Assembly (NCBI GenBank): GCA_009778595.1 | Contig: WRJI01000020.1 | Location: forward strand, 1 to 34,428 | Length of the DNA stretch: 34,428 nt | Source: Peptococcaceae bacterium | GTDB lineage: Bacteria > Bacillota > Desulfitobacteriia > Desulfitobacteriales > Syntrophobotulaceae | Direction: 5' to 3' | Part shown: one piece after another, positions 7,510 to 26,340 of the stretch | Position numbering within the stretch: position 1 is the first letter of the stretch | Layout of the letters: every line of letters starts with the position of its first letter | The notes under the pieces: generated by a model | Told to the model about the DNA's origin: nothing | Databases searched by the model: none | The model's input: the letters and a program-made list of their open reading frames with translations, nothing else | Position numbers and translations under genes: made by a program

Positions 7510-8276
7510 GTGCCCGTGTCCGCGAGCTACGATCCTTGGAAAATCTGGCGGCGGGACAGACAGTGATCCATCGGTTACATCCGTTGGCAAAACTGTTATC
7601 CGCTTTTGTATTTATTGTTTTCGTGGTTTCTTTTGGGCGGTATGAATTTGTAGGATTGGTGCCATATTTGTTCTATCCTTTTGTTTTGATGGCTATGGCG
7701 GATTTGCCCTATAAGGTGTTGTTAACCCGTGTTCTGGTGGCGGTTCCTTTCTGTTTGTTTGCAGGGGTGTCCAATGTCTTTTTCGACACAGGTGCGGCCT
7801 TTGCGGTTGGTGGGGTCGCTGTGAGTCTGGGGATGTTGTCATTAGCGACAATACTGCTGAAAATGTATTTGACGGTGATGGCGGCGTTGCTGCTTGTGGC
7901 GACGACACCTTTTACGGAATTGACGGCTCAGTTGCGGCGTCTTTTTGTGCCGGTGATTTTTGTCATGGTGTTTGAGATGACGTTTCGGTACATTGGGGTT
8001 TTGTTTGAAGAGGTATATTCGATGATGACGGCTTATCGGTTGCGGTCCGGCACCGGGAAAGCGTTGGATATGCGGCATATGGGGTCTTTCGTCGGGCAAC
8101 TGTTGCTGCGGGGGTTCGACCGGGCTGAGCGTGTTCATGGGGCTATGTGTTGTCGCGGCTATTCGCTGAAGCATAGTCCTCCCGCCCGGCATCGGTTTCG
8201 GGGGGCGGATGTGTTGGCGTTGGCGACGGTTTGTCTGCCGGTGGTGGGATTGCGGATCGTGGGGGTTTTACTATGA
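7497..8276 (+). CDS. cbiQ: CbiQ-type ECF transporter T component
   Basis: Polytopic membrane protein (259 aa) that couples the ATPase to CbiM in the Co/Ni ECF importer. It has the family opening around IHRLHPLAKLL, several hydrophobic segments between about 30 and 165, and the C-terminal coupling-helix region containing RGFDRAERVHGAMCCRGY with its Arg-Gly motifs. The start overlaps the last 13 bp of cbiM, and the stop overlaps the cbiO start as ATGA, so the three genes are translationally coupled. Confidence 0.9.
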   Translation: MPDISARVRELRSLENLAAGQTVIHRLHPLAKLLSAFVFIVFVVSFGRYEFVGLVPYLFYPFVLMAMADLPYKVLLTRVLVAVPFCLFAGVSNVFFDTGAAFAVGGVAVSLGMLSLATILLKMYLTVMAALLLVATTPFTELTAQLRRLFVPVIFVMVFEMTFRYIGVLFEEVYSMMTAYRLRSGTGKALDMRHMGSFVGQLLLRGFDRAERVHGAMCCRGYSLKHSPPARHRFRGADVLALATVCLPVVGLRIVGVLL

Positions 8277-8965
8277 TTCAGGTCAGAAATCTGATTGTTG
8301 AATACCCCGATGGGACGAAAGCGGTAGATTCGGTGGGGTTCTCTGTCGGCCCGGGGGAGAATGTCGCTCTCATCGGCGCGAACGGTGCGGGGAAGTCATC
8401 GTTGGTGTTGGCTCTTGTTGGGGTGTTGCTTCCGGCTCAGGGAGAAATTCATGTGGGGGAGACGGTGCTCCATAAGAAAAGTCTGCGGGAAATTCGTTCC
8501 CGGGTGGGGTTAGTGTTTCAAAACCCGGATGACCAGCTTTTTATGCCGAATATTTTTGAGGATGTGGCCTTTGGACCTCGCAGTTTCGGATGCGATGAAG
8601 AGGAGACGACTCAACGGGTTCGTGCCGCGCTGTCGAAGTTGGGCATTGAACATCTCGCCGAACGGTCGCCTCTCAAGCTTTCCGGCGGGGAGAAACGGTT
8701 GGCGGCGATTGCTACTGTCCTGGCCATGGATCCGGACTATTTGTTGTTTGATGAACCCACTGCCTTTCTGGATCCCCGGGCTCGGCGCAACTTGATCGAC
8801 ATCCTTGGGGAGTTGCCTCAAGGTAAACTGATTGCGACTCATGATCTGGCTTTCGCGGGTGAGATGTGTTCTCGTGTGTTGTTGCTGGAAAGAGGGGAGA
8901 TTGTCGCGGATGCGGGGATTGAACTGCTGAGGGATGGGGTGGCCCTTGAGAGGGTGGGGCTGTGA
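8273..8965 (+). CDS. cbiO: CbiO-type ECF transporter ATPase
   Basis: ABC ATPase powering the Co/Ni importer on the inner face of the membrane. It has Walker A GANGAGKSS (35-43), Q-loop VFQNPDDQLF (81-90; the NPDDQ form is typical of ECF A components), signature LSGGEK (136-141), Walker B YLLFDEPTAFLD (from 156) and the switch His in ATHDLAFA. ATG 8273 overlaps the cbiQ stop (ATGA); an upstream in-frame start at 8231 would add 14 residues lying inside cbiQ and is unlikely. At 230 aa it is a single compact ATPase with no second one nearby, implying a homodimer. No clear terminator hairpin follows. Confidence 0.93.
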   Translation: MIQVRNLIVEYPDGTKAVDSVGFSVGPGENVALIGANGAGKSSLVLALVGVLLPAQGEIHVGETVLHKKSLREIRSRVGLVFQNPDDQLFMPNIFEDVAFGPRSFGCDEEETTQRVRAALSKLGIEHLAERSPLKLSGGEKRLAAIATVLAMDPDYLLFDEPTAFLDPRARRNLIDILGELPQGKLIATHDLAFAGEMCSRVLLLERGEIVADAGIELLRDGVALERVGL

Positions 8966-10934: not shown

Positions 10935-13900
10935 TTAGTGATTAATTGGCTTGGAGGCGGGTGTTTTTCGTTCCAAAGGCCACTCTTTCTGAAATGGGGA
11001 GGTTCTCCCATATTCCGGTCCCGACTCGAAGGGATACTGTCTGGCATATACCATAAATCCTCGTCCATAAACATCGTGGCGGCTTCTTGCGTGCATTTCC
11101 TGTCGTTTGGCATAGGCCGGTTCAATTGAATACAGAAACTGAATCTCCGCCCAAGTTGACATTCCTTCGTAAACCATGGGGGTATTCTTTTCGCCATACC
11201 GGGCAATGATTTTTGTTCTGTCCCAGTTGATGAGCTGCCATATATGTGTCAATTCGTGGACAATGTTTGCCATGGCGGCGATCTTGGGCGCACCGTTCTC
11301 AATGGTGATAGCGTACCCCTTCGGTTCTTTGGCAGCAAAAGCAAGGGCCCGGCTTTTATATTCCGGGGATTGAACAAAAGGCACGCCTGTGAGTTCCGCA
11401 ATCTTTCCGGCATCGGCCATGCGGAGCTTGATGGGGGCTTTGATGCGGATTCCATACAGTGTTTCCATATGGCGGAGAGCATATTCGTACAGTTGATAGA
11501 ATTTCTCAACAGTTTTCAGAGATGATTTCGCGCACTGGGGACAACGTTCGCGGCCGTCGGCCAATACGTCATATTCGCCTCCGGCTAATCCGATACCGCA
11601 GAAATCGCAGAAATGAATGACGGAGGATGCGGGCGTTGTTGCGCCGGGCAGACCTTGAGCGGGCAGGGCGCCTGGGTCCGGCGAAATGTCGGTGATATGA
11701 CGGTTCTGTTCGGAGCTCGCACGGGCTTGTTCCAGCGCGTTTTTATCGTAACCGTAACAGGAAAGAAACCGTAAGGTTTCCTGAACACTGAGCATGGGGT
11801 CAACTTGGCTGTATCCATAGAGAAGGAAGCAGCTGTCTGCGTATTTTTTAGGCAGCGTCAACGGTATAGTCTCCTCAACATTGTCCTGCTGAGACGCTGC
11901 GGTTACAGAGGCTGCTGAGGGGCCGGAGCGGGGCAACCGACCCTCATACCACGCCAGGCAGTCGGTAATGATCTCAAGGAATCGCGTGAGATTGCGGTCA
12001 ACGGAAACAAGCAACCCCAAGTCGATGTCACAATCCTCGATAATGTAGACGGCGTCCTCATCTGCGAAACCGTCCAGATGCAGGGGACTCATTATGTCCG
12101 CAATAGGGGATACACTGCCGGCGTCTCTAACAACAGTGGCTGTTATATACTGGTGGCTCTCCGGGTATAGGGTCACAAAAATCTCATTGAGCATCAACGC
12201 TATGGTGAACCGCACTTTCTCACTGACCCCCATCAGTTTCAGACGCAGCACCGCTTTGTTCTTATACCGCCGGGGAGGGATGCTGCTCAAATCTACCCGG
12301 TGGGCAGATGCGAGATTGTCCAAAGATGTGAGATCATAATAACCCTGAGTCGTCACCCCAATATCGCAGAATCCACGGTTCAACTCAAAACCCTTTCCTG
12401 TGCGCCGGGATCCCATGGCCGGATCCTGTGCAAACCCGGAAAGGGAATATTCCCGGCGCTGCCGGTAGGCCTTTCGGTCTGTTATATGATCGGCCGCTCG
12501 GCGCAGGACGACACCGCTTTCCGGGGTGATGGTCTGTACCTGATAATATTTTCCCGAGTAGGTCAAGAATTGACCGGGCAGATATTTTTGGAACACTTGA
12601 CCGTAGAGCATGGCTCCAAGATAATAGTTTTTGTCTTTGTCGTCCTCGATAATGAAATAAGCGTTGGAGAAAGTGCGGGCATAGTCCGCCAGTTGGGTGT
12701 CGTTGTCAAGGATGGCGTAATAGATGGATTTCACCAGCTCCATATCGTCGCCGATGATCTCGTCCCGGAAGCAGGGTGCGATAGAGACAGTATCCACATG
12801 GCAGTGTTTGATGACAAGCTCGCAAAGCTTATGGAAGGGGTCGCAGAACTCTATTCCGGCTAGGGACAACTTGTGTTTCAACTCCGTTTCGCTGATACAG
12901 CCGCCAAACATTCCCATGATGAGTTCAACCACCGTGTTTTTCTCTGTGCGGGTGTAATCCGCAACGATTGAGGGAATGACCTTGGAATCGGTAGCAAAAA
13001 GTGAGGCGTTGTCTATCATATAATCCCGCAACAGGTAATTCTCGCTGATGACATTCACGAATCCTTGTTTTTTGGCTCGGGTGGCGTAAAGGCGGGTCAT
13101 TTCAAAAAGGTTGTTGAATTCATCTTCAACAGTGATGAAGACGTTGTCCTTGGTGTCCAGGTTCCAAAGATTTGATTCGACTCGGAAGGCTCCGGCTAGA
13201 GCTTCTTGGCTCTGGGGGAAGTTAATGTACCGGCAGATGGTTTGGTGATATTGCCCGGCAATCCAGCGGATATCCAGTACAGGGAAACGGTCGCTGCTTA
13301 CCCAAAGTGTCTTGGCAACCTGATTTCTTAGAGCTACAGCGGATAATTCGGTTCCTACCCCCAGATAATGCGCGATGTTGGGCAGGATTGTATGGTGCAG
13401 AAAATTCCCGTGGGCGTTCCAGTACATCAGAGAACAGTTCGCCGGGGAGGGAACCGTGGCGAAGACTTCCGTCAGGTTGACTTTGAGGATATGGGAAAGG
13501 GTATCAACAAGACCGTCACAGTTGCGGTCACAGGAACAATAGACGATATTGTCGGAACCTTTCGCGAGTCGGTCACCAAGAAGAGTCAGGCCGGTTTGGC
13601 CGGTGGAGATGATTCGGGAGGGTTCGATCAGAAGGACGAATCCCACCTGATCGAGAAACGCCGCGCCGGCCTCTAATACTGATCGGTTGTAGACGTCGGC
13701 AAACCGGAGAACAGCCACATCCCACCCGGTTTCTTGCTCGGTTAGAATCCCGGTTTTCCACAATTCCGACGTCCCGCATGTTGCGGCAATACCTTCGTGG
13801 AGCCAACACCGCACATCTTCGGCGGCGCTGTCCCGCCCAACGATGATCAGGGCTTTGTCATAGGAAAGGAGCCGTCGGACAAGGGGGAGGATGATATACC

Positions 13901-14822
13901 CTGTCAGGTCTTGATAGAAGGGCACATTCAGAAGGACGGATTTCCCGTTGGCCATATCGATGGAAGCCCGTACGAATCCGGGGTCTACGGTTTGGCCTTT
14001 TCCTTTGAGAGCCGAAAAATACCCGGAGACAACAACATCTAATTCCTTCGTGCTGTCAGCGAGGGTGTCGAGCATATCAAATGAGGACAGTCCCGAAAGA
14101 GCATCGGCTTGGTTGTCATAGAGGATCCGGTCGTCAAACAAATCGTGAAAGACCCGGCGCAGCATACCATAGTTGGTGACCCGATATGATTCGTCAACAT
14201 CGCCGTTTATGTCCGGTGAATCCTGCCCGGTGGGACCTGACAGGAAGAAGAAGATCTCACCCAGAACCAGGATCCCAAAAACCGGGTAAAAAGGCGTCCG
14301 GAAAACCAACCAATCAGGATAGAGCTGTGAGAGAGCCAGGATCAGGGATGAAATGCCGATACCGAACCAATAGAACCCTTTCCACAGAGCTTTAGCCTGA
14401 CCGAATTCCTTTTTGAGGATCCACATGTCCTCGTATTCGCTGAATTCATAGATTTTGCCGGAGATGTAATGGAATAAGAAGCCGGGTTTGCTCCAGATCT
14501 TATCGATTAAGGGCAGGAGGGTGGATTTAAGGGCGAGGAAGAGCAGGATCAGGAGGATGTTATTAATAAGGCCTGCCCATGGGGTCAAAAAAAGGAGAGG
14601 CGGGACGTATTCACCAATGGTTTCCAGAATAACGGTGACCAGACCGGCGGTTTGGTCGGCAAGGAGTAGAGCGGGAATACTATAGAGGACCGCCACCAAG
14701 GGCATAAGGAATTGCTTCGGACGGTTCTCTTGATCCAGGTTCGCCTTGCCGGACAGTGCCAGGAGCAACACAAACAGACCGACAGCAAGACCCGTTATGA
14801 TTAATTCGGTTAGTAGAGCCAT
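10935..14822 (-). CDS. 1295-aa polytopic protein: helicase-like middle, zinc ribbon and HELTH metallopeptidase domain
   Basis: Last gene of the operon. About five or six membrane segments lie at roughly 3-22, 39-56, 58-80, 88-106, 151-168 and 177-195. The long soluble part opens with a segment (about 225-460) resembling a superfamily 2 helicase core, with KSVLLNVPFYQDLTGYI, KALIIVGRD, WDVAVLRFADVYN and VGFVLLIEPSRII. It lacks a Walker A motif and a DEAD box (IEPS instead), so it is probably not an active helicase; this reading is tentative. A zinc ribbon follows: C1072-x2-C1075 and C1094-x2-C1097. The C-terminal domain has H1189-E-L-T-H1193 and, 26 residues on, E1219 in VYEGMSTWAE, a gluzincin-type zinc peptidase layout. 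A LIM-like ribbon before such a domain recalls DA1-type peptidases. AAAGGAG overlaps the preceding stop (5-bp gap). Confidence 0.75.
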   Translation of the reverse strand: MALLTELIITGLAVGLFVLLLALSGKANLDQENRPKQFLMPLVAVLYSIPALLLADQTAGLVTVILETIGEYVPPLLFLTPWAGLINNILLILLFLALKSTLLPLIDKIWSKPGFLFHYISGKIYEFSEYEDMWILKKEFGQAKALWKGFYWFGIGISSLILALSQLYPDWLVFRTPFYPVFGILVLGEIFFFLSGPTGQDSPDINGDVDESYRVTNYGMLRRVFHDLFDDRILYDNQADALSGLSSFDMLDTLADSTKELDVVVSGYFSALKGKGQTVDPGFVRASIDMANGKSVLLNVPFYQDLTGYIILPLVRRLLSYDKALIIVGRDSAAEDVRCWLHEGIAATCGTSELWKTGILTEQETGWDVAVLRFADVYNRSVLEAGAAFLDQVGFVLLIEPSRIISTGQTGLTLLGDRLAKGSDNIVYCSCDRNCDGLVDTLSHILKVNLTEVFATVPSPANCSLMYWNAHGNFLHHTILPNIAHYLGVGTELSAVALRNQVAKTLWVSSDRFPVLDIRWIAGQYHQTICRYINFPQSQEALAGAFRVESNLWNLDTKDNVFITVEDEFNNLFEMTRLYATRAKKQGFVNVISENYLLRDYMIDNASLFATDSKVIPSIVADYTRTEKNTVVELIMGMFGGCISETELKHKLSLAGIEFCDPFHKLCELVIKHCHVDTVSIAPCFRDEIIGDDMELVKSIYYAILDNDTQLADYARTFSNAYFIIEDDKDKNYYLGAMLYGQVFQKYLPGQFLTYSGKYYQVQTITPESGVVLRRAADHITDRKAYRQRREYSLSGFAQDPAMGSRRTGKGFELNRGFCDIGVTTQGYYDLTSLDNLASAHRVDLSSIPPRRYKNKAVLRLKLMGVSEKVRFTIALMLNEIFVTLYPESHQYITATVVRDAGSVSPIADIMSPLHLDGFADEDAVYIIEDCDIDLGLLVSVDRNLTRFLEIITDCLAWYEGRLPRSGPSAASVTAASQQDNVEETIPLTLPKKYADSCFLLYGYSQVDPMLSVQETLRFLSCYGYDKNALEQARASSEQNRHITDISPDPGALPAQGLPGATTPASSVIHFCDFCGIGLAGGEYDVLADGRERCPQCAKSSLKTVEKFYQLYEYALRHMETLYGIRIKAPIKLRMADAGKIAELTGVPFVQSPEYKSRALAFAAKEPKGYAITIENGAPKIAAMANIVHELTHIWQLINWDRTKIIARYGEKNTPMVYEGMSTWAEIQFLYSIEPAYAKRQEMHARSRHDVYGRGFMVYARQYPFESGPEYGRTSPFQKEWPLERKTPASKPINH

Positions 14823-14827
14823 CGCGG

Positions 14828-16948
14828 TTAGACTCCTTTCTTCTCGTAGATTTCCTCACGGATAAGACACAACCCGGAAATGAAGCTGTAGGGCGCATCG
14901 AGAGGTTCACCGGTGTTGTCCAGTTTCAAGGTCTTCGAATCCGTGTTGGGCACAAGTTCATACAAGGGACTGGCCGACGGATGCTCCTGCAAAAAACGGT
15001 CGGGGATACTTATGAAAGGGTTATTCAGAGCGGGGGTATCGGTGGGGATCCCGTGCAAAGAGCATAGGAGCCTGCTCAAGGCGATCTCATCCTCCAGGGC
15101 GGCCATATGAGCCTTGCGCAGTTTCTCCGCCGCGGTGTCGCTGTCTTGTTTCAACCGGGACCCCATAAGCAATGAGCGGGCATACATATAGGTGCAAACC
15201 TTAGAAAAATAGTCGCCATAGACTTGAGCGCCGGCATTGGCTTGGTCAAAAACAGCGATCACGGTTTCATTGTAGGTTTTGATTTTCTTCAATAGTTTTC
15301 GGCGCACGGCCCACAGAATCAGGAGGCCGCCTACCGCCAGGAGCCCGAGAGCCGACCCGGTCAGACCCAGGGAAGCCCAGAAAACGTTCCGGCTCATATC
15401 CCAGGCGTTGATCAGGTAAGGCACAAAACCGCCGAGGAAAATGATTAGGGCGAACAGAGAGATGTAGAGGATGTTGCGTTTGGTTAGGCGCAGACCCAAG
15501 GATTGGCGGACAGTCTGCCCGGCTGCGTCAATCTCCGCCATATAGACATTGGGATCGAGAAGTCCGTAGATTCTGGCGTTGATAATCCGGGGCTCAAGCT
15601 CGTCCAGTCGCCTTTGGATCCGCTCGATCTGAAACCGGTCCAGGGTTTGTTCTTTGCCGGCAAAACCGGAGATCCTGTTGCGGGTTTCGATAGCTTTGGC
15701 GGCCACAAGCTCCCGGAGGCCTGACAAAAGGTGTTCGATCTTCCGGTTGGCTTCTTGTTTGTGCTCGCGCCAAAATCGTATTTCCGGGATGGGACAATCC
15801 GAGGCGAGACCCAACATAGTCGTGTCTGCGACGATCGTCTCATCGTCAAGAGGTTCAAATCTGACCGAGACTTCTTGCATCGGCACAAGGTCTTTTCTGT
15901 CGGTGGTGACCTGGGAGGCGCGTTGTTTCTGTTCTTGAAGGATGCCTTGAATGGAGAGCAGGTTGGCCCGGTGGTTCTCAAGCACCCTGGCAAGTTCACC
16001 GCTCTTTATACTGAGATCGGCTCTGTACAGATGGTAGGCCTGGAGGGCCTGGCTGGGGATCTGATTGATCGCCAAGGTGAGGGTCAACAGGCACAGCCGC
16101 CAGAGTTCCCTGGGATACAGGGTGTGTTCCCGGTTGATCAGATCGTAACAAAGGAAGCGGCATGTGTTGGGGTAGATCTTCCAGAACCCGGAGCTGTCTT
16201 TCTCATCATGGAAATTCCAGGCATGGTTGACGGCCTGGCGGGTGGCTTCCCTGTCGTCTGTCGCGAGGATTTCTCTGGTGGATAACACAAGAATTTCTAC
16301 AGGGCGGTTTTCTTTGAGGGCGTACTTCCTGGTCAGACGTCTGTATTCGGTTTTTTCCTTCTCGGAGTAGGGGACTTCAAAGAGGCGCAGCTTGATATGA
16401 CCTCCAAATCTCTCAAATACTTTTTCGTAGTCTTCGGGGGCGAGAGTCCCCACATCGCTTTCCAGGATAGGAGTCCCATCTTCGTGGAGGCAATCTAAAA
16501 AAGCCCCGGTCTGTTCATCGTAATAGGTATAACCCGTCGCATAATCTTTGACCCCAAGGGAGGGAAACCCCGCCAACATATGTGTCAAGCGAACCAGGGG
16601 TATCGGGTTCTCCTGAATCAACAGGTCAAAACTATGGTTGCAGACAAAATCGAAAGGGTTGTGGGGGCTATAGAGGGCCAAGCTGTTGTCGGCCAGGCTG
16701 TCGCCGGCCAGGCTGTTGTCAGCCATACCATCTCCAACCGAGTTGACAAATATTATGGCCCGCCATTCCGGGTACCCTTTGATGGATTTATACAGTTCGG
16801 GAACAGCCTGTTCAATATCGGTTCCGGCTTCATGCCAGGAACACTGGCATACGCTGCCGCCCCGTTCAGGGAGAAAGGGGGCGAATAACCGCCTATGTGT
16901 GGCAAATAAGGCAGTCGTATGCTGATCGGTGATAATGACGGTGTGCAT
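14828..16948 (-). CDS. 706-aa coiled-coil protein with two membrane segments, operon partner of the tubulin-like protein
   Basis: Not recognised as a named family. The N-terminal part (1-70, HTVIITDQHTTALFATHRR to EWRAIIFVN) looks like an alternating alpha/beta fold. It is interrupted by a three-unit repeat (residues 76-90, ADNSL/AGDSL/ADNSL). A mostly helical region follows, with a charged coiled-coil-like stretch at about 395-455. Two membrane segments (about 493-513 and 524-547) form a hairpin, leaving both large ends on the same, presumably cytoplasmic, side. The C-terminal 150 residues are helical and soluble. The start is supported by GGAGGGAGGG just upstream. It lies 30 bp after the tubulin-like gene and 5 bp before the 1295-aa gene. 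A membrane adaptor or scaffold role for the tubulin-like protein is inferred from context only. Confidence 0.75.
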   Translation of the reverse strand: MHTVIITDQHTTALFATHRRLFAPFLPERGGSVCQCSWHEAGTDIEQAVPELYKSIKGYPEWRAIIFVNSVGDGMADNSLAGDSLADNSLALYSPHNPFDFVCNHSFDLLIQENPIPLVRLTHMLAGFPSLGVKDYATGYTYYDEQTGAFLDCLHEDGTPILESDVGTLAPEDYEKVFERFGGHIKLRLFEVPYSEKEKTEYRRLTRKYALKENRPVEILVLSTREILATDDREATRQAVNHAWNFHDEKDSSGFWKIYPNTCRFLCYDLINREHTLYPRELWRLCLLTLTLAINQIPSQALQAYHLYRADLSIKSGELARVLENHRANLLSIQGILQEQKQRASQVTTDRKDLVPMQEVSVRFEPLDDETIVADTTMLGLASDCPIPEIRFWREHKQEANRKIEHLLSGLRELVAAKAIETRNRISGFAGKEQTLDRFQIERIQRRLDELEPRIINARIYGLLDPNVYMAEIDAAGQTVRQSLGLRLTKRNILYISLFALIIFLGGFVPYLINAWDMSRNVFWASLGLTGSALGLLAVGGLLILWAVRRKLLKKIKTYNETVIAVFDQANAGAQVYGDYFSKVCTYMYARSLLMGSRLKQDSDTAAEKLRKAHMAALEDEIALSRLLCSLHGIPTDTPALNNPFISIPDRFLQEHPSASPLYELVPNTDSKTLKLDNTGEPLDAPYSFISGLCLIREEIYEKKGV
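16680..16724 (-). repeat. Three 15-bp in-frame tandem units in the 706-aa gene
   Basis: 16680-16694, 16695-16709 and 16710-16724 are near-copies of AGGCTGTTGTCGGCC. Each adds five residues (ADNSL or AGDSL) without changing the frame. Confidence 0.85.
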
Positions 16949-16978
16949 AGGGCCCTCCCTCCGGGCGACGGTTCCTTG

Positions 16979-19900
16979 TTACCCTTCGCAAAACTGTTGT
17001 TTGGAGAAGTCGTTGATTTTGTCGGCCATTTCAGAGAATCCTTTGCTGATCAGGACTTTTATGAGGACTTGCAGAAGCATCCGCAGATAATCGTCTATGA
17101 TCGAGGGGTGTTTCTCCTTATAGAGCTCGAAGTTGTTGACGAACAAATCCAGCTGTTCTTGAATCAGCCCGGTATAGGTGGCGTCCCGTTCGTTTTCGGG
17201 GCAGAGGATACCAATTTGTTCGTAGAGAGCTTCCAGAGTGGTTTCCAAAAGCATAAGACCTTGTTCCAGAATGAAGTCGTCCGGGGGCATGGTTGCTTTG
17301 AAAGCCGCGGCGATACCGAAGATGCTCATGCGGCGGTTTTCTCCGGAAAGCTCCCGCAGGGTGAAGGTATTGAGCCCTTTGTAGAGGGCACCTTCTTCGT
17401 ACTTAACCACATTGTCTTTGCGAGCGGTTTCCAGTTCGTTGTCCACAGCGCTGAGGATTCTTTTGACCACCACCGGGTTGATAGTGAGGGCGTCGATGAT
17501 GCGGTAGAAGGTGTCACAGGGGGCTCCTGTGGAAACCTCAAGAGGAATTTCTTTGATGCTGTCTTTGAGCCAAAGGCTGTATTTATACTTTTCACCGGTT
17601 TTTTCGTAGCGAATGCGTTCGTAGAGCAGACCTAACACAAGGGCCTTGAAAATGTTTCTCTCTTGTTCTCTTTGGAGTTCGTCGTTGAGGTCGGGCATTT
17701 CGGAGATGAGGTGCCAGTGTTTATGCAAATGGGGGGTAATGACCGGCGTGGTGAGGGTGTTGGGTTCGATCCGGTTGATCATATCGAAGTAGGCTTTGTT
17801 GTATTCGCCGGCTTCAAGGACGACGGTCTTGCTTTTTTGTGGTGGGGAGAATTTGAGAAGATCGTAGGGGAATAGGCCGTAGATGGCGCTGTAGAAGAGA
17901 ATCCGCTCGATATCAATCTCGTCATCTTCACTGGGAACGCCGCCAAAGGTAAGGAGTTCGGCATTGACAAAAGACTCTCGCCTGGGGTTGTCGGTGAGAT
18001 AGAGTCTCTTATTGAAGGCGCAGGCGTGGATGGGTACGGGTTCTTCACCAACGGGTCTGTTGATAAAGGGGTCGGAAAGTTTTTTGGTGTCGGCTATGAC
18101 TTTTTTGACGTATTCGGTGATGAGGCTTCGTTCCCGAATGTCTTCCTCATATTCGGCTTCCACTTCCAAGGCCCGAATGATGTCCATTTTGATGTCTGTG
18201 CTGTAGGCTTCCATAACTGAGGTCTGAAAATGCCGTAGAATCTCGTTGTCGAAGATGTCTTTGAAAAAAGTGCCGGTGGCGGCTTCGGCCACCGTGAATG
18301 ATCGGACCTGGTTGTAGATCCTCATACAGAGGTCTCCGGGCAAATGGAGAGCGCTGCCGGTGAACTCCATTTTCTCGTAAAACTTGTCAAGGCATTTTTT
18401 GGAGGAACAGACGTAACGGACGGCACTGCCTTTGTTGTGGCGGTATTTTTCTTCTGAGGTTTTAATTTGCCGTTCAATATCGCTGACGTTGGTGTCGAAA
18501 GATTTGTAGAACAACTCAAAGGATTTGTTGAGGTCGCGGATATATTTGACGGCGGCTGTAAGGACGGCCACATAGGGTGCGTTGACGCGGTAATCGCCGA
18601 TGGTTGCCAGGAGGGACTCGTATTGTTCGGTATAGTCCATGATTTCACCGGCGAATTTCTTGGACATACGGGCCCAGAGACCGGCGTTGTCGATTTTGCG
18701 TAAGAAATCCCCAATGTTTTCCACAATATCGGTATCCGGGTCGTCAAACAAGGTGTCGAAGCGTTTAAATATTTTTTCGGCGAGATCTTTTTTCTTTTCT
18801 GCTTCGGCGAGTTTTTTCAGGAGGGTTTGGAGGGTTTGATAGAGGAAATAGCGGGTGGCGTTGGGATGCATGAATTCTTTGGCGTTGTCCCGCAGATAGG
18901 TTTCTATCTGTGTGGGCAGCCCGCCTAAGGTGACGTCTTCGTCTTCGTTGAATTTAAAAAGTTCATAGGCGGCCACCCGGCCGATGTCACCGACTCTCCG
19001 AACCACCAGTTCTTTGTAAGCTAACAGATAGTTGTAGGCGTTGCGGAAGATGTCCATGTCGGGTTTTTCTCTGCCCACCGAGGTAAGGGCTTCTACCGCG
19101 CTCTGCGCTGTGTCGCGGCTGTTATCGATTTCGCTTTGGCCGCTTCTGGCGATGCGTTGGACATATTTCATCAAAGCGTCGGCGTATTCAGTCCATTTGC
19201 AGCCGATCTCTGTAAAACCGTCTTTGTCAAAACGGTAGGAGGCGTTGCGGACAAACATGGCGAAGGCGTTGCCGTTTTCAGCGGCGGCGTCTACGGATCG
19301 GATATATTCCTGGGCCGGATCGATCTCTGCGACATTGTGGCCTTTGAGACGGGCCCGGTTATTCTCGACACTTTTCTTGTGGAAGTCCCGGTCAAATACC
19401 GTCCAGTGATCCGAGACGGTTTGGGCCGCCCATTTCAGGGCGATATAGCGGAGAATATGGTCGGAAGGGTAGACGAGTTCGGAAGCCCCGGCTCCGGCGT
19501 AGCGGTTGCGGCTCTGGCCGGATACCAGGGTGCGGATGGTGTTGTCTTCGGAAGAGTTGCTGCGGGTGTTCATGGGGCCGATGGATTGGGCGTAGATGCA
19601 GGTGGCGGCGTGATCCAGGTATTGTTCGGTGGAGTTGAGTTTCTTGCCTTCGATGTTCTGAGCGTCAAACATGAATGTGAAATCCATGGGGAGAACATCG
19701 TATTCTTCGAATTCGTTGGTGCCGACTTTGGGGAACAGTAAGTGAACCTTATCTTGGTAGCGTTGGGGCAAGTTGCCGTCGGCTTTTAGGATGAAGGCGT
19801 TGAGTTCCCGGAGTACGGCGTAGGCGTTGGCCTTGAAAGCGTTGCGCATAGGTTCGGCAGTGACGGCGCCGTAGAGAATTTCCGGCAAAATGAAGAAGCC

Positions 19901-20437
19901 GCGGGTGATGCTGCCGGGAATTTGGATTTTGGTTTTGAGAAATTGTTTGATGTACATGGAGATGGGCAGGATGAGTCCTGAACCGGTGCCCCCGGCCAGG
20001 GTGCTGACAATAATGACCCGTAGCACCTGAGCGCTTGGGGTGTTTTCCAGCTTGTACAGATCATAGATAGCGCTGTCCAGGGGTTCCAGGCAGCCCCGTT
20101 TCATGGCGGTCACGAAGGCGAGGTGAGATATGGCCCGGACTTGACCGGCGCCTTCGCTGAGGGTTTTGCGATACAGGTTGGGATTCACGGGGAAAGAGTT
20201 GTCTCTGGTGAATTCGTCCAGGTGCAGGTAGTCGCCGACGGTCATATTGGTTGAGGTCTGGACGGTGCGAATGAAGGGGTTATCTCTTTTGATCTTGTTG
20301 AGTTCGTTGACATCGGTGTCAAACACCACGAAATTTATGCGTTCCCGTTGTCGTTCATCGTTGATCATTGCCGACAATTTGGCTGTGATCTGTGATCCTA
20401 TACCGCCAAGTCCTATGATTAATGTTGGTGCTAACAT
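16979..20437 (-). CDS. Large tubulin/FtsZ-superfamily protein (Tubulin_2-like, FtsZl)
   Basis: The first ~220 residues show the tubulin-type GTPase signature: LIIGLGGIGSQ (7-16), VFDTD (38-42) and STLAGGTGSGL (145-155), the counterpart of the G-box GGGTGSG. NAYAVLREL (204-212) follows. At 1152 aa it is several times longer than FtsZ; the remaining ~900 residues are helical, soluble and unrecognised. No signal peptide or membrane segment is seen. The start at MLAPTLIIGLGG (20437) is fixed by AAAAAGGAGG about 7 bp upstream; an in-frame ATG at 20470 would add 11 basic residues and has no such site. Known context for such FtsZ-like proteins is a vWA protein and membrane remodelling, and a vWA gene precedes it here. 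It may polymerise in a GTP-dependent way beneath the membrane; this is inference. Confidence 0.85.
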   Translation of the reverse strand: MLAPTLIIGLGGIGSQITAKLSAMINDERQRERINFVVFDTDVNELNKIKRDNPFIRTVQTSTNMTVGDYLHLDEFTRDNSFPVNPNLYRKTLSEGAGQVRAISHLAFVTAMKRGCLEPLDSAIYDLYKLENTPSAQVLRVIIVSTLAGGTGSGLILPISMYIKQFLKTKIQIPGSITRGFFILPEILYGAVTAEPMRNAFKANAYAVLRELNAFILKADGNLPQRYQDKVHLLFPKVGTNEFEEYDVLPMDFTFMFDAQNIEGKKLNSTEQYLDHAATCIYAQSIGPMNTRSNSSEDNTIRTLVSGQSRNRYAGAGASELVYPSDHILRYIALKWAAQTVSDHWTVFDRDFHKKSVENNRARLKGHNVAEIDPAQEYIRSVDAAAENGNAFAMFVRNASYRFDKDGFTEIGCKWTEYADALMKYVQRIARSGQSEIDNSRDTAQSAVEALTSVGREKPDMDIFRNAYNYLLAYKELVVRRVGDIGRVAAYELFKFNEDEDVTLGGLPTQIETYLRDNAKEFMHPNATRYFLYQTLQTLLKKLAEAEKKKDLAEKIFKRFDTLFDDPDTDIVENIGDFLRKIDNAGLWARMSKKFAGEIMDYTEQYESLLATIGDYRVNAPYVAVLTAAVKYIRDLNKSFELFYKSFDTNVSDIERQIKTSEEKYRHNKGSAVRYVCSSKKCLDKFYEKMEFTGSALHLPGDLCMRIYNQVRSFTVAEAATGTFFKDIFDNEILRHFQTSVMEAYSTDIKMDIIRALEVEAEYEEDIRERSLITEYVKKVIADTKKLSDPFINRPVGEEPVPIHACAFNKRLYLTDNPRRESFVNAELLTFGGVPSEDDEIDIERILFYSAIYGLFPYDLLKFSPPQKSKTVVLEAGEYNKAYFDMINRIEPNTLTTPVITPHLHKHWHLISEMPDLNDELQREQERNIFKALVLGLLYERIRYEKTGEKYKYSLWLKDSIKEIPLEVSTGAPCDTFYRIIDALTINPVVVKRILSAVDNELETARKDNVVKYEEGALYKGLNTFTLRELSGENRRMSIFGIAAAFKATMPPDDFILEQGLMLLETTLEALYEQIGILCPENERDATYTGLIQEQLDLFVNNFELYKEKHPSIIDDYLRMLLQVLIKVLISKGFSEMADKINDFSKQQFCEG

Positions 20438-20475
20438 GGAGGGCCTCCTTTTTTGTTTAACGGGCGCCACCCGTC

Positions 20476-20506
20476 GGTATTCAGGATTCGAGATTTTAGA
20501 TTCAGG
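20476..20506. repeat. Relic of the dispersed repeat in the vWA/tubulin-like gap
   Basis: GGTATTCAGGATTCGAGATT followed by TTAGATTCAGG matches the ATTCAGG-rich middle of the ~97-bp repeat but lacks its hairpin and GTTGCAAC end. It occupies much of the 76-bp gap between the vWA stop and the tubulin-like start. Confidence 0.5.
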
Positions 20507-20513
20507 AGGGAAC

Positions 20514-22697
20514 TTATCGCCGTTTCTTCTTTTTCTTACGTTTCTTAGAGAAGGAGCAAGTGTGGGTCGAGGAGATGCCGCCGCTGTAGTAGACGGATTT
20601 GATCCGGGCCGTACAACTCATTTCCTTCTTCTTGGTCGATCCCTCCGGCAAGGGTTGATCGTTAATGAAGAAATCGGTGCTGCCGAGGCGTTCCGGGGCA
20701 AAGTCCCCGGTGTTGGTCAGCTCCATACGTTCGTTGCCGACGGCTTTGATCTTCAGCGATGGCAGCGGTTTCCCGTCTGCCGCCGCGATCAATGTGCCTG
20801 ATTCCGGACAAAGAGGCAACCATTTGGTTTTGGAAATGATTCGAAACGAACCATATTTGGTGACTGTGTTGTAGTCTGATTCTACCAATATGGTTGGTTT
20901 AGCGGACATGTATTTCGGGAACCGTTTCTTTCTGCCCCAGAGGAGCCAGTACAATAAGACACCCATCAACAAGGCCAACAGCGGCCAGATTTTCTTCAGG
21001 ACATTGAGAAAACGTTCCCAAAACCCTATGTCATCTATAATGGTCACCGTGATCGTGCCTTGACCCCGATAAGGTTGTCGGTCATAGGTGAATTCGGCGG
21101 TGGCGGTAAGGATGATGTCGCCGGTTGAGGTCGCGAATTTGTCGTTGTTTTGTTGTTTGAGGAAAAACTCGTAGGTGGAGACGCCGGTCCCGTGCCTGAC
21201 TTCGGTAATAGCCACTTTGTCAACGGTGGTTATCGTCGGCAGGGGCATATTCTGCCATTGGTCCCACGTAAGCAAGGCGCCGTCTTGTTTGATGGTTACG
21301 AGAAAGGCGCCGGAATCGTTCAGGGTGGTCACAGTTAAGTCTTCGTTTGGCGCGGTTATGTCGATTTCCAGAGGAAGCGACGCCGAGGCGACACTCCGGG
21401 TGATGATGTGTTCGGCGGTGTTGATGTCCAAAAAGCGGGAGGAGACGGATATCGTCAAATCCCCGGGTGTGATGCTGACAGTATCACCTGATTGAATCGG
21501 AACGGTCTGATCGTTGTTCCGGTAAAAGGCGTCGTATTGGATTTTGCCGAGAAGAGAGGATTCAAAAAAGTCGCCGTTATCATCAATCATGCCGAAGCGG
21601 ATTTGATAGTCGCCCTCAGGGATATCCTGGCTGTCGATTTCTTCGCCGTTCTGATAGAGTTTGATATCAACATTGACATCCGGTTTATAATAGATATCAA
21701 CGGTTTGCGCTCCGGCGATATCCAAGGTGTAGGTGCCCTTGGGGATATTGCGGAAGGCGGCGATCATACCGGTCAGGTCACGGGAAATCACAACTTTCGG
21801 ATCGTTTCGATAGCTTGTCGAGGCAATCTCGCTGTACTGAACATAGACAGACTCGCTGAGGGTGTATGTGCGGCCTGTACCGCTGTTATTGCTGTCGCCG
21901 CCTGTGAGGGTATTAACCCGGACGTTGGCGCCTTGCGCGAAGACCAGAAGTTCCATCATCGGAATATCGAACGTGAACTCTTGTCGGCCACTGTTGGTGA
22001 AACTGAGCTGGTTTCTGTTGAAAATTCGATTGCAGATGGACGTAATTTTCCCAAGGATTTCGCTGCTGTTTGTGGCATGCTCAAAATAGATGTTCCTGCC
22101 GGGATCGGCGTGTATGACAGTGGCGTCGCGGCCCATAGCCAGGAACATGATTTTGATGTCGCCGGTGGAGACATACTGCGAAAAGAAGTCGTCCACATCG
22201 ATGGAATAGTTTTCCTTCCCGTCCAAATAGTTGAATTCTCCGTCGGTTAAGACGACCAGCCATTTTTCATCGGTGTTGGCTTTTTTGAGATCCTCATAAG
22301 CTTTAGCCACCGCGTCGAAGGGGGTTCCGGAGGAGGGGGTGACCGTATTGTGGATTTTGGCAACGCGGGTTTCGGCAGGTTCTGAGCCTGAGATGGTTAA
22401 TTTGGGAGGCACGCTGGTATTCGCGGATACCATGAAGTCGCTCATATAGTAGACGCTCATGGTGTCTTTCTCTTCCAGCATAGCGGCAAAGACTTCCATG
22501 GCGTACTTTGCTTGTCCCCATCTGTCAAGGTATGTGTCGTTGGCGTCGATGATCATGCTGCTTGAATCGTCATACACAACATTAATGGTTTTGCTGCGTT
22601 GATTGGTGGTGTAGGCTTGGGCGGTGCGGGAATGCATAGGTATGGATAAGGCACAGAAGAGGAAGAGGCACATAAGTAAGGAAACCGGTTTTTTCAT
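20514..22697 (-). CDS. Exported, membrane-anchored vWA-domain protein
   Basis: First gene of the four-gene operon. A signal peptide (about 1-28, cleavage after AQA) leads into a vWA domain (about 36-230). Its metal-ion-dependent adhesion site is complete: D43-x-S45-x-S47 in VVYDDSSSM, a Thr in SSGTPFDAV (about 125) and an Asp in VVLTDGEFN (about 148). A long beta-rich stretch (about 230-560) follows. One membrane segment (about 570-590, IWPLLALLMGVLLYWLLW) ends in basic residues. The last ~137 residues form a presumably cytoplasmic domain with a Lys/Arg-rich C-terminus. This topology puts the ligand-binding domain outside and a tail inside that could contact the tubulin-like protein. AGGAGGACTC directly precedes ATC-ATG. 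Confidence 0.88.
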   Translation of the reverse strand: MKKPVSLLMCLFLFCALSIPMHSRTAQAYTTNQRSKTINVVYDDSSSMIIDANDTYLDRWGQAKYAMEVFAAMLEEKDTMSVYYMSDFMVSANTSVPPKLTISGSEPAETRVAKIHNTVTPSSGTPFDAVAKAYEDLKKANTDEKWLVVLTDGEFNYLDGKENYSIDVDDFFSQYVSTGDIKIMFLAMGRDATVIHADPGRNIYFEHATNSSEILGKITSICNRIFNRNQLSFTNSGRQEFTFDIPMMELLVFAQGANVRVNTLTGGDSNNSGTGRTYTLSESVYVQYSEIASTSYRNDPKVVISRDLTGMIAAFRNIPKGTYTLDIAGAQTVDIYYKPDVNVDIKLYQNGEEIDSQDIPEGDYQIRFGMIDDNGDFFESSLLGKIQYDAFYRNNDQTVPIQSGDTVSITPGDLTISVSSRFLDINTAEHIITRSVASASLPLEIDITAPNEDLTVTTLNDSGAFLVTIKQDGALLTWDQWQNMPLPTITTVDKVAITEVRHGTGVSTYEFFLKQQNNDKFATSTGDIILTATAEFTYDRQPYRGQGTITVTIIDDIGFWERFLNVLKKIWPLLALLMGVLLYWLLWGRKKRFPKYMSAKPTILVESDYNTVTKYGSFRIISKTKWLPLCPESGTLIAAADGKPLPSLKIKAVGNERMELTNTGDFAPERLGSTDFFINDQPLPEGSTKKKEMSCTARIKSVYYSGGISSTHTCSFSKKRKKKKKRR

Positions 22698-22802: not shown

Positions 22803-22831
22803 ATTATACAAGACCTGGGGCTGATGGGCAA
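22803..22831 (-). promoter_or_regulatory. Promoter of the vWA/tubulin-like operon
   Basis: On the minus strand TTGCCC (22826-22831), a 17-bp spacer and a perfect TATAAT (22803-22808) form a good sigma-A-type promoter. The leader would be about 100 nt. No other convincing promoter is seen within the operon. Confidence 0.65.
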
Positions 22832-24442: not shown

Positions 24443-25351
24443 ATGGATATAAATACCATTCTCTCAATGAAAGCGGTTTTCGAAGAAAAGGCTTTGCCGG
24501 TGGTAACAACTGTAGGTCTATCTTTGGGTGCTTTATCCCTGCTCGCTTATGGCGGAAGTAAAATCATTCAACCCCATGTCCGATCTGTGGAAAAAGGCGG
24601 GGATGGCCTGAATTTGGCAAGCTCGGGTTTTGCTTATGATGCCAAACAGGATATCTTCTATTCGGAGAAGAAATCCTGGCAGAGGAAATTTGGCTATCTT
24701 CAGGCCTACGATGAAGCCGCTCCGTTCATGAATTGCATTTTCCATTCAGAACCTATCCGTTTTGAATACGAAGGAAAAAAGTGGCTTATCGAACTGTGGA
24801 AAGGTCAATATGGGATGGCTACCGGTTGTGAAATCGGCGTGTACACGAAAGAGATAGGGAACCTCTTACCGGGATACAAGGCGGCCAAACAGCAAGATCA
24901 TTTATTCTTGACTGCGACGTTGGTAAAGAACGGCAAAGTTCTCTTTACCCGCGCGGATACCCATTGGTGGTTGACCGGGTTCGTCCTGGGCGAATACTCC
25001 GAGCCTGAAGAATTGTCGGCTTATGTAAGGATTACCCTGAAAACATCGGCTATGTGTGATGTTTTTGTTGAAGAGCTGGAGAGACTGGGATATCAGAATT
25101 ACCAAGTGTTGCGTGACAGAAAAACGGTTGCGTTTGTTTTCGATGTGCCATATTCCAAACAGCCGGTTATGCATTCCGGCATTGTACGGAACTGGATTAT
25201 GGGCATCAACAGGAATTATTGCGACTTATACCAGGCTTCCGGAATCGAAATCGGTCATTATCTCAAAGAAAACGAAGAGTTGCCGACTGAGCTGTTTCCT
25301 TACGGCAGTACCCCATTTGGCGGGGCGCCGGATTGGTCCGGTTGTTGTTGA
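24443..25351 (+). CDS. DUF4474-like protein with N-terminal membrane segment
   Basis: A hydrophobic segment (about 19-40, VVTTVGLSLGALSLLAYGG) precedes a conserved globular domain. That domain holds GFAYDAKQDIFYS, SWQRKFGYLQAYDEAAPF, IRFEYEGKKWLIELWKGQYGMATGCEIGVY and TRADTHWWLTGF. These blocks match what I remember of DUF4474, a domain of unknown function found in clostridia. The domain probably faces outward or sits at the membrane. A purine-rich AGGAGGGG lies about 13 bp before the ATG. A strong hairpin follows the stop, so the gene is probably a single transcription unit. No function is proposed. Confidence 0.75.
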   Translation: MDINTILSMKAVFEEKALPVVTTVGLSLGALSLLAYGGSKIIQPHVRSVEKGGDGLNLASSGFAYDAKQDIFYSEKKSWQRKFGYLQAYDEAAPFMNCIFHSEPIRFEYEGKKWLIELWKGQYGMATGCEIGVYTKEIGNLLPGYKAAKQQDHLFLTATLVKNGKVLFTRADTHWWLTGFVLGEYSEPEELSAYVRITLKTSAMCDVFVEELERLGYQNYQVLRDRKTVAFVFDVPYSKQPVMHSGIVRNWIMGINRNYCDLYQASGIEIGHYLKENEELPTELFPYGSTPFGGAPDWSGCC

Positions 25352-25365
25352 AATCATGGAATTCC

Positions 25366-25415
25366 CGGACAACAGTGGTCATTACAATCAGTGACCACTG
25401 TTGTCGGCGATTTTT
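25366..25415 (+). terminator. Intrinsic terminator after the DUF4474-like gene
   Basis: A perfect 14-bp stem (25368-25381 with 25392-25405, GACAACAGTGGTCA and its complement) closes a 10-nt loop and is followed by five T residues at 25411-25415. Confidence 0.8.
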
Positions 25416-25437
25416 GGTGGAAGGGATGTAAAGAGAT

Positions 25438-26340
25438 ATGTGGACGCAGCTTGGACACCGTGACAAAAAAATATCTGACGCCTTTGTGGGTGCTCCGGAA
25501 GTCTTTGTTGACGATTCTTCAAGAATTGTTTTTATGAGTGATATACATCGGGGCGATTCGAATGGAGCCGACGCCTTCTATCCTCAAAGAAATATTTTTA
25601 TGGTGGCCCTAAAATATTATGATTCAGAGGGATTCACTTATGTGGAATTGGGGGACAGCGATGAGCTCTGGGAGAATCGCCATTTTTCAGACATTCGGGA
25701 GACCTACGGAAGCATCTTTGAGATGTTGGCTTCAATGCACGAAGCCGGCCGTTACTATAGTGTTATAGGCAACCATGATATCGTTAAAAAGGAACCAAAA
25801 TGGCCGGAAGAGAATATGACGGCGGGTAAAGCGGATCGAGCGGCAGAATTGTTCCGGGGTCTCTTTTTTCCCCAAGGAATCGTGTTCAAAAATCCGGCGA
25901 AAGGCTGGAAAATTCATGCTTTGCATGGGCACCAAGCTGATCGCTTCAACAGTGATTTTTGGAGGATAGGCCGGTTCTTGGTGCGCTATATCTGGAGACC
26001 TTTGACCCTTATCGGGGTGAAGGATCCTTTGAGTGCCTCATCCAACAAAAGGAAAAGAGGAGTTATCGAGTGGGAGCTGGCGTATTGGGCTCAGAAACAC
26101 AAGACAATGATTGTCGCCGGCCATACCCATCGTGTCGCCTTTCCCAATCCCGGGGCCCCCCTCTATTTCAATGACGGATGTTGTGTGCGGCACGAGGTTT
26201 TGACAGCGATTGAGATCATGAACGGAGAAATTGCCCTGGTCCGGTGGGGCATCAAAAGCAACGAAGAAGGGTTCTTATATGTTTCACGAGAAGAGATCCA
26301 CGGACCTGTGGCACTTGACGTGTATTTTCAAACCCTATGA
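25438..26340 (+). CDS. Metallophosphoesterase (calcineurin-like)
   Basis: A binuclear-metal phosphoesterase of about 300 aa. The ordered motifs are SDIHRGD (34-40), GDSDELW (72-78), GNHD (111-114), HGHQ (163-166) and GHTH (228-231), which supply the expected Asp, His and Asn ligands. The GDSDELW form and the overall length resemble UDP-2,3-diacylglucosamine hydrolase-like phosphoesterases seen in many Gram-positives, but the substrate cannot be assigned. No signal peptide is seen, so it is probably cytoplasmic. It starts 23 bp after the terminator of the preceding gene, with AAAGAGAT close to the ATG. Confidence 0.88.
   Translation: MWTQLGHRDKKISDAFVGAPEVFVDDSSRIVFMSDIHRGDSNGADAFYPQRNIFMVALKYYDSEGFTYVELGDSDELWENRHFSDIRETYGSIFEMLASMHEAGRYYSVIGNHDIVKKEPKWPEENMTAGKADRAAELFRGLFFPQGIVFKNPAKGWKIHALHGHQADRFNSDFWRIGRFLVRYIWRPLTLIGVKDPLSASSNKRKRGVIEWELAYWAQKHKTMIVAGHTHRVAFPNPGAPLYFNDGCCVRHEVLTAIEIMNGEIALVRWGIKSNEEGFLYVSREEIHGPVALDVYFQTL

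Follow-up and report, generated by a model that had tools for sequence, protein, structure and literature searches.

Tubulin-like proteins of the FtsZl1 type were described by Makarova and Koonin in 2010 together with von Willebrand factor A (vWA), GTPase, kinase and OmpA partners, most of the other partners being lineage-specific and without recognisable domains (PMC2875224; here and below, statements on published systems refer to the accessible parts of the cited texts). The role of FtsZl1/Tubulin_2 was only predicted in that paper, and a 2023 paper presents these proteins as divergent, sparsely distributed homologues (PMC9871819). Kaur et al. (2020) placed GTPase-centred tubulin/vWA systems among proposed conflict systems, several of them with inactive enzyme domains (PMC7159879). 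According to a preprint survey, the YprA/MrfA (DUF1998) helicases include DISARM, Druantia and ARMADA (PMC12458937). Here we report on a four-gene operon in a stretch of 34,428 nucleotides, called the window below, which is a single contig (G000:C20) of a Peptococcaceae genome assembled in 142 contigs. The operon encodes a vWA protein, a Tubulin_2 protein (TUB), a protein with long helices and a membrane hairpin (CC3) and a protein that joins a membrane region, a helicase-like part and a peptidase (PEP4). It represents an FtsZl1/vWA system, and its most likely output is proteolysis under the control of a pseudo-helicase.

The four open reading frames (ORFs) lie on the minus strand in the order vWA, TUB, CC3 and PEP4, with intergenic gaps of 76, 30 and 5 bp. 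The ORF list confirms these gaps, the single strand and the sizes of 727, 1152, 706 and 1295 aa given in the original prediction, which had been made from the window's sequence. The longest TUB frame starts at a GTG and has 1163 aa; the ATG start gives 1152 aa. In the following list, MIDAS stands for metal-ion-dependent adhesion site.

20514..22697, minus strand: vWA protein gene, 727 aa (ORF list, alignment and MIDAS pattern)
16979..20437, minus strand: Tubulin_2 (FtsZl1-type) gene with a long C-terminal part, 1152 aa from the ATG (PF13809 at 6.2e-53 over residues 6-341)
14828..16948, minus strand: CC3 gene, 706 aa (alpha/beta part at the N-terminus, then long helices on both sides of a membrane hairpin; homologues occupy the same slot)
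10935..14822, minus strand: PEP4 gene, 1295 aa (a membrane region and a pseudo-helicase, followed by a linker, a zinc knuckle and a peptidase)

PEP4 was found in 31 genomes, all of which also carry Tubulin_2, mostly in the same operon; for G796, whose distant PEP4 was found through its tubulin, this count is circular. In 25 of the 31 genomes the four genes keep the intact order vWA-TUB-CC3-PEP4 on a single strand (G000, G464, G466, G467, G468, G148, G486, G857, G513, G651, G553, G605, G845, G600, G757, G500, G736, G689, G709, G713, G706, G584, G591, G733 and G796), including G500 and G709, in which PEP4 runs off the contig. Five other loci are cut: by contig ends in G465 and G779, by a tubulin front located on another contig in G616 and G707, and by the end of the fetched stretch within the first gene in G483. 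The same order recurs even where the proteins are only about 22-46% identical to those of the window, and therefore the arrangement is not due to chance. An exact test gives 9.3e-30; it takes no account of shared ancestry, and we do not treat the value as a probability. The predicted linkage of PEP4 homologues to tubulin genes in other genomes is thus borne out. The expected conservation of the order in several phyla holds for several Firmicutes families; beyond them it concerns just two spirochaete metagenome-assembled genomes (MAGs) and is not firm. The Turicibacter MAG G468 has two tandem copies of the operon (L080, L081), the tubulin of the first copy being present as two overlapping ORFs.

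A strict two-row PEP4 profile matched 2 of 398 genomes of the phylum, and a wider eight-row alignment recovered more elsewhere. With the wider profile, a sample of 394 genomes from the order of G148 yielded PEP4 in 23 (20 genera). Tubulin_2 is present in 33 genomes of that sample, including all 23 with PEP4 and, as one more, G796. A scan for PEP4 in contigs from 84,980 species, started from two short peptide patterns, gave six loci, in a Peptococcaceae MAG (G002), two Treponema MAGs, a Clostridiales MAG, Erysipelotrichaceae RD49 and a Turicibacter MAG. The same Treponema MAGs are the two genomes with PEP4 among 195 from the family of G464. Tubulin_2 matched in 13 of the 82 genomes of the window's class; CC3 was detected in just two of a set of 61 near relatives, namely G000 and G002, and among 14 stretches then fetched, homologues of PEP4 and CC3 occurred in G002 only. 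The window genome has one Tubulin_2 match and one CC3.

The tubulins linked to PEP4 form a separate group. In a tree of 41 sequences (first 420 residues; three incomplete PEP4-linked tubulins omitted), a branch with support 100/98 separates all 28 PEP4-linked sequences from a selection of 13 sequences without PEP4. Long branches are seen for G713 and several of these 13, and such joins may be false. The tubulins of the Treponema MAGs join those of G000 and G002, a placement compatible with transfer or with misbinned contigs. The other Tubulin_2 (FtsZl1) operons compared share the vWA gene, the window's vWA protein matching those of L017, L018, L020 and L021 with 96.6% probability; CC3 and PEP4 were not detected in them by profile comparison. 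The third genes of these other operons, of about 767 aa (L017, L018, L020, L021), 744 aa (L024) and 599 aa (L025), were compared with CC3 by sequence profile only and were rejected as its counterparts (maximum 0.3% probability).

The C-terminal end of PEP4 carries the putative catalytic module.

11532..11609, minus strand: LIM-like zinc knuckle CxxC-X18-CxxC of PEP4, residues 1072-1097 (alignment)
11244..11258, minus strand: HELTH metallopeptidase motif of PEP4, residues 1189-1193, with E1219 as probable third ligand (motif, alignment and DUF6782)

A linker of 62-283 residues precedes the zinc knuckle CxxC...CxxC, which is followed by HELTHxWQ...EG. All 20 aligned PEP4 sequences keep the four Cys, the two His and the Glu of HExxH, and the Glu that follows later, without exception. 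All 20 match PF20573 (DUF6782, "putative metallopeptidase") at E <= 1, with 7.2e-08 as the best value, and 17 of the 20 match BSP. Among solved chains, the best profile match is to the VgrG2b effector domain (E 0.2) and covers the HExxH helix alone. In DA1, too, a LIM-type zinc knuckle precedes a HExxH peptidase; PEP4 resembles DA1-type LIM peptidases in this arrangement and differs in that 2 of the 20 members match the DA1-like PF12315 (best 0.024). Likewise, PEP4 shares the HExxH and a downstream acid with DUF6782, whereas the window protein scores 13.4 bits against that family, below its cut-off of 27.

In a survey of 30 PEP4 sequences from 29 genomes (G500 and G707 stand outside it), HExxH was found in the right context in 21 genomes (G000, G002, G464-G467, G148, G486, G857, G513, G651, G553, G605, G845, G600, G779, G757, G736, G689, G709 and G713). 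It is missing from both G468 copies, the G616 piece, G483, G706, G584, G591, G733 and G796; a chance HEVEH elsewhere in the PEP4 of G483 was not counted as a peptidase motif. The peptidase match of G616 and the peptidase piece of G500 are each on another contig. The six HExxH-less loci of a distant group (G483, G706, G584, G591, G733 and G796) all have a C-terminal transglutaminase-type domain with Cys-His-Asp kept, and G651, G553 and G605 possess this domain and HExxH together. Pfam Transglut_core was matched by five PEP4 proteins, four of them above the cut-off and that of G651 at 20.1 bits versus 23; a profile built from these five found the other four independently. G464, G467 and G689 encode the peptidase module in an ORF of its own or in an overlapping one, possibly through sequencing error. 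Because peptidase-type domains were repeatedly gained or exchanged at the same end of PEP4, a proteolytic output, as the original prediction proposed, is likely at the level of sequence. Two further proteases were seen at these loci. In one Treponema MAG (L036:8066-13150), a subtilase, Big_2 and copper amine oxidase-N precede PEP4 in one frame, at the end predicted to be outside, which could be a fusion or an assembly effect, and an S8 protease is located near the operon in L041.

The remainder of PEP4 consists of two regions.

14226..14822, minus strand: PEP4 membrane region, residues 1-199 (five hydrophobic segments, predicted N-out/C-in)
11943..14081, minus strand: PEP4 pseudo-helicase part, residues 248-960 (predicted to fold like MrfA/YprA; Walker A and DEAD/DEAH both lacking)

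In hydropathy averaged over 19 homologues, the loops 26-37 and 107-149 are basic, and PEP4 is therefore predicted to have its N-terminus outside and its C-terminus inside, which counts for proteolysis in the cytosol. The fourth membrane segment was not picked up by a simple hydropathy scan restricted to the window protein. Using Foldseek, the four best matches of PEP4 were chains of the DUF1998 helicase MrfA, from E 1.9e-14 (6znp) to 3.6e-10; other helicases begin well behind, at 7.8e-05. After re-alignment, DEAD-type chains align over 171 residues at 2.8 A with a Z of up to 17.9; MrfA aligns over 350 residues at 18.8 A with a Z of 16.4, meaning that its domains are differently placed relative to each other. 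The pLDDT is 65-86 in ten-residue blocks of model residues 41-190 and below 45 over 241-410. In nearly all of the 20 aligned homologues, the place of Walker A is taken by an NPFYxDL-type and that of Walker B by an EPS-type sequence; Walker-A-like strings occur at other places in two of them (L095, L099). The middle of PEP4 is best interpreted, from its model, as a MrfA/YprA-family helicase fold whose ATPase motifs are gone, and since sequence profiles do not confirm it, this kinship rests on the predicted fold. No Pfam match to the four-cysteine DUF1998/MZB cluster was obtained in PEP4; a (Y/F)xxED-x4-DxGL stretch resembles MZB by eye and was not counted as evidence. The fourth protein had been described as membrane segments, a helicase-like part without a P-loop and a zinc metallopeptidase, and the predicted fold, the lost motifs and HELTH after CxxC...CxxC agree with this.

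These features are consistent with an FtsZl1/vWA system that ends in proteolysis: linkage, order, domain make-up, intact or lost catalytic motifs and C-terminal module exchange can all be read in the sequences compared. We are evenly divided on a more specific form of this reading, a trans-envelope complex that couples an outside signal or the membrane state to controlled cytosolic proteolysis. The vWA protein would bind an outside ligand via its MIDAS, and the resulting change would pass through the single membrane segment to the cytosolic tail, where it would promote GTP-dependent assembly of Tubulin_2 beneath the membrane. CC3, held in the membrane by its hairpin with both ends inside, would tie the filament to PEP4. 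The pseudo-helicase of PEP4, without the usual ATPase motifs, may have a role in binding or regulation, with nucleic acid as a possible ligand. Upon assembly, the peptidase on the C-terminal linker of PEP4 would be released or concentrated and would cut cytosolic targets, the cutter being a zinc knuckle plus HExxH metallopeptidase here and a transglutaminase-type cysteine peptidase in other lineages. The physical complex, the direction of the signal, the activation and the targets are what we infer. Possible but rather unlikely, in our view, is a membrane-anchored surveillance machine of a new class, in which a tubulin polymer under the control of an extracellular vWA sensor gates a protease fused to a dead YprA-type helicase turned into a nucleic-acid or protein sensor; this would be, in effect, a bacterial filament-triggered protease. 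A conserved Tubulin_2 subtype with a partner that bears exchangeable peptidase-type domains offers a biochemically testable output.

Several observations weigh against the trans-envelope complex with cytosolic proteolysis. In the congener G002 the operon is truly split into vWA-TUB (L022:6811-12467) and CC3-PEP4 (L035:6951-12880), both mid-contig among other genes, and because this genome holds two pairs in two places, linkage of all four genes is not essential. The PEP4 peptidase is assigned mainly from its motif and from Pfam matches that are below the cut-off for the window protein. The two PEP4 copies of G468 lack both zinc knuckle and peptidase, and neither was detected in the neighbouring DNA that was fetched. 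A separate transglutaminase-type gene adjoins PEP4 in G713, and because its start looks, by eye, like that of an exported lipoprotein, part of the action may be outside the cell. The model of PEP4 residues 216-1295 is weak (mean pLDDT 57.5, pTM 0.33). When PEP4 was compared by HHalign with a pair of DUF1998 helicases taken from related genomes, the probability was about 1%, no better than the 3.9% of a tubulin control. No PEP4-MZB profile comparison was significant: residues 855-962 gave 2.4% and the overlapping 880-987 2.9%, with 0.1-0.8% for 15 of 16 other PEP4 stretches. As a separate matter, the two intact pairs of G002 provide a natural test for separable modules.

Further features of the first three proteins and of the upstream region are as follows.

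22557..22571, minus strand: vWA MIDAS motif DDSSS, D43, S45 and S47 (aligned homologues)
20934..20990, minus strand: vWA C-terminal membrane segment, residues 570-588 (hydropathy; 3 basic residues before, 6 after)
19976..19996, minus strand: tubulin/FtsZ signature AGGTGSG, residues 148-154 (motif check)
15314..15472, minus strand: CC3 membrane hairpin, residues 493-545 (hydropathy, basic outer flanks; both ends predicted cytosolic)
22803..22831, minus strand: promoter-like TTGCCC-17-TATAAT before the vWA gene (pattern scan)

The vWA protein, for which Pfam gave no family above cut-off, is predicted to consist of a signal peptide, an exported vWA and beta-rich region, a single late membrane segment and a basic cytosolic tail. 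The MIDAS DxSxS is present in all 12 aligned homologues, the window protein included, and was not seen in the incomplete vWA pieces of G584 and G591. The vWA genes of the distant group were matched by a general profile at 79-113 bits in G713, G706, G591, G733 and G796, and a profile made from distant vWA proteins recovers those of G584 and G591. TUB matches Tubulin_2 (PF13809), the one Pfam family above cut-off among the four proteins, and Tubulin/FtsZ at 3.5e-07, just under the cut-off. AGGTGSG or SGGTGSG is found in 13 of 14 checked tubulins, the exception being L105. In the model of CC3 (pLDDT 67.3), an alpha/beta N-terminal part is followed by long helices around the membrane hairpin, with hydrophobic segments at 493-511 and 527-545. 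In the distant group (G713, G483, G706, G584, G591, G733, G796, G616 and G707), the protein in the CC3 slot is tied to CC3 by profile comparison only (143 columns, 70.5% probability, E 3.9e-05); a profile built from five of these members recovers the other four at 134-266 bits. CC3 codons 18-67 encode 50 of 50 residues identical to those of a congener, the whole protein being about 65% identical. Recent recombination as the cause of this identical stretch was rejected, as 20 of the 50 codons differ synonymously, and these differences indicate strong constraint. The features noted at the outset, a surface vWA protein with an intact MIDAS, a tubulin/FtsZ signature in the second protein (confirmed here as Tubulin_2 on a profile basis only) and a coiled coil with a membrane hairpin in the third, are therefore all recovered. 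The "one good promoter" did not hold up: such a site exists, but the scan counted 13 promoter-like sites in the region versus 14.0 expected by chance. None of the four proteins has an NCBIfam family above its cut-off, and Rfam gave no match at gathering score anywhere in the window. An IS1634-family transposase (27978-29627; 2.2e-77, NCBIfam) is located about 5 kb from the vWA gene.

A protein family that may be an optional fifth part recurs close to the operon in seven genomes; four of its seven members match TrkA-N or RyR weakly, none above cut-off.

L037:4275-6227, L038:323-2230, L083:1824-3764, L091:15444-17216, L092:1-1413, L097:1514-3898 and L105:4330-6600: members of this TrkA-N/RyR-like neighbour family

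A second family, two of whose three members match RCK channels weakly, is found near the operon in three genomes, and two genomes have an FtsK-like ATPase there. G001, one of three species of the window's genus, is without CC3 and Tubulin_2, and the other two carry the genes at different sites, for which reason the operon is taken from its distribution to be accessory. G001 has aminotransferase, DUF4474 and metallophosphatase genes, and unrelated genes then follow the aminotransferase. The window holds this cluster common to G001 at 24443-26340, where a DUF4474 protein and a metallophosphatase adjoin the aminotransferase.

The patchy presence and the different sites within one genus would suit a role in conflict, directed against phages or other invaders. 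A MrfA-like pseudo-helicase would sense foreign nucleic acid at the membrane, the tubulin polymer would set the threshold, and the peptidase or a membrane-perturbing CC3 would stop the cell. The exchangeable C-terminal domains of PEP4 and the proposal of tubulin/vWA GTPase systems, several with inactive enzymes, as conflict systems (PMC7159879) point in the same direction, as do a TIR-LRR protein near L089 and a weaker TIR match near L037. However, no PADLOC model matches any of the four proteins (0 families at E <= 1), and searches of 72,556 plasmid and 50,697 phage records gave no PEP4 match. The flanks are not richer in defence models than a control, with 17 families over 130 flank proteins versus 122 over 146 control proteins, these counts being of families and not of proteins with a match. 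The flank set comprised 30 stretches, G002 and some other loci not being included, and 131 proteins, of which one L038 duplicate was dropped. The control comprised 20 stretches from 15 operon-bearing contigs with 196 proteins, of which 148 were drawn at random and two of the longest omitted; it includes a BREX gene, among the matches listed (the first 25 of the 122 families). We consider a conflict role possible and rather unlikely. Also unlikely, in our view distinctly so, is a membrane-remodelling or envelope machine as for FtsZl1, in which filaments and CC3 shape the membrane or place a surface structure and the peptidase merely processes components. The vWA and tubulin genes are indeed the FtsZl1 core (PMC2875224), and the top neighbours of CC3 after structural re-alignment are F-BAR and other helical proteins. 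Yet the best of these (Z 10.4, 5i7d) is within the range expected of long helices, Foldseek found nothing for the CC3 model at E <= 0.001, and no confident fold match can be named; a family not appearing in these lists may still be the right one. This explanation also leaves the pseudo-helicase and the exchangeable peptidase-type domains unexplained. Finally, that four unrelated genes are co-directional by chance in the window genome, for which the two separate pairs of G002 might speak, is extremely improbable and is refuted by the recurring order at low identity and by PEP4 not being seen in any genome without Tubulin_2.

The association of FtsZ-like and vWA proteins, which the original prediction took as known, is described for FtsZl1 (PMC2875224) and recurs here as a Tubulin_2 gene beside that of a MIDAS vWA protein. 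No description of the combination of CC3 with a pseudo-helicase protease was found in the open-access literature, among the matches listed, and the main text of the YprA survey contains no word beginning with tubulin, vWA, peptidase or transmembrane (PMC12458937). Together with the separate tubulin group and with CC3 and PEP4 being undetected in other FtsZl1 operons, this supports the proposal of an undescribed variant, although CC3 or PEP4 could be among the unnamed partner families of the 2010 supplementary list (PMC2875224). As in FtsZl1 systems, a Tubulin_2 N-terminal domain with a long C-terminal part is encoded beside a signal-peptide vWA protein with MIDAS, and extra membrane proteins are present. 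In contrast, no GTPase, protein kinase or OmpA, which are frequent and not defining partners, was found by Pfam scan among the 18 larger window proteins; CC3 and the pseudo-helicase peptidase are added, and the tubulins group separately. The GAP1-N2 systems (PMC7159879) have in Firmicutes a tubulin fused to a coiled-coil part and an extracellular vWA, and the wider set includes inactive enzymes and peptidases. They differ in having a P-loop GTPase with N-terminal zinc ribbons beside GAP1, whereas the Walker A pattern is found in none of the four operon proteins (the sole window ORF of at least 100 aa with Walker A, 8231-8965, is a probable cobalt-transport ATPase). They also have, in Firmicutes, two tubulin and two vWA genes, versus one of each here. 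Locus L026 (G006), with two tubulins and many genes between them, resembles these firmicute systems of Kaur et al. With YprA/MrfA helicases (PMC12458937), the middle of PEP4 shares its predicted overall fold (Foldseek), and an effector-type domain is likewise placed at the C-terminus. PEP4 differs in the absence of Walker A and B and of a detected MZB zinc cluster, in its membrane anchor, in having a peptidase instead of a nuclease, and in its tubulin and vWA partners. If our interpretation is true, a membrane-embedded helicase fold of the YprA type found in immunity, now lacking its ATPase motifs, would be at work inside a cytoskeletal system.

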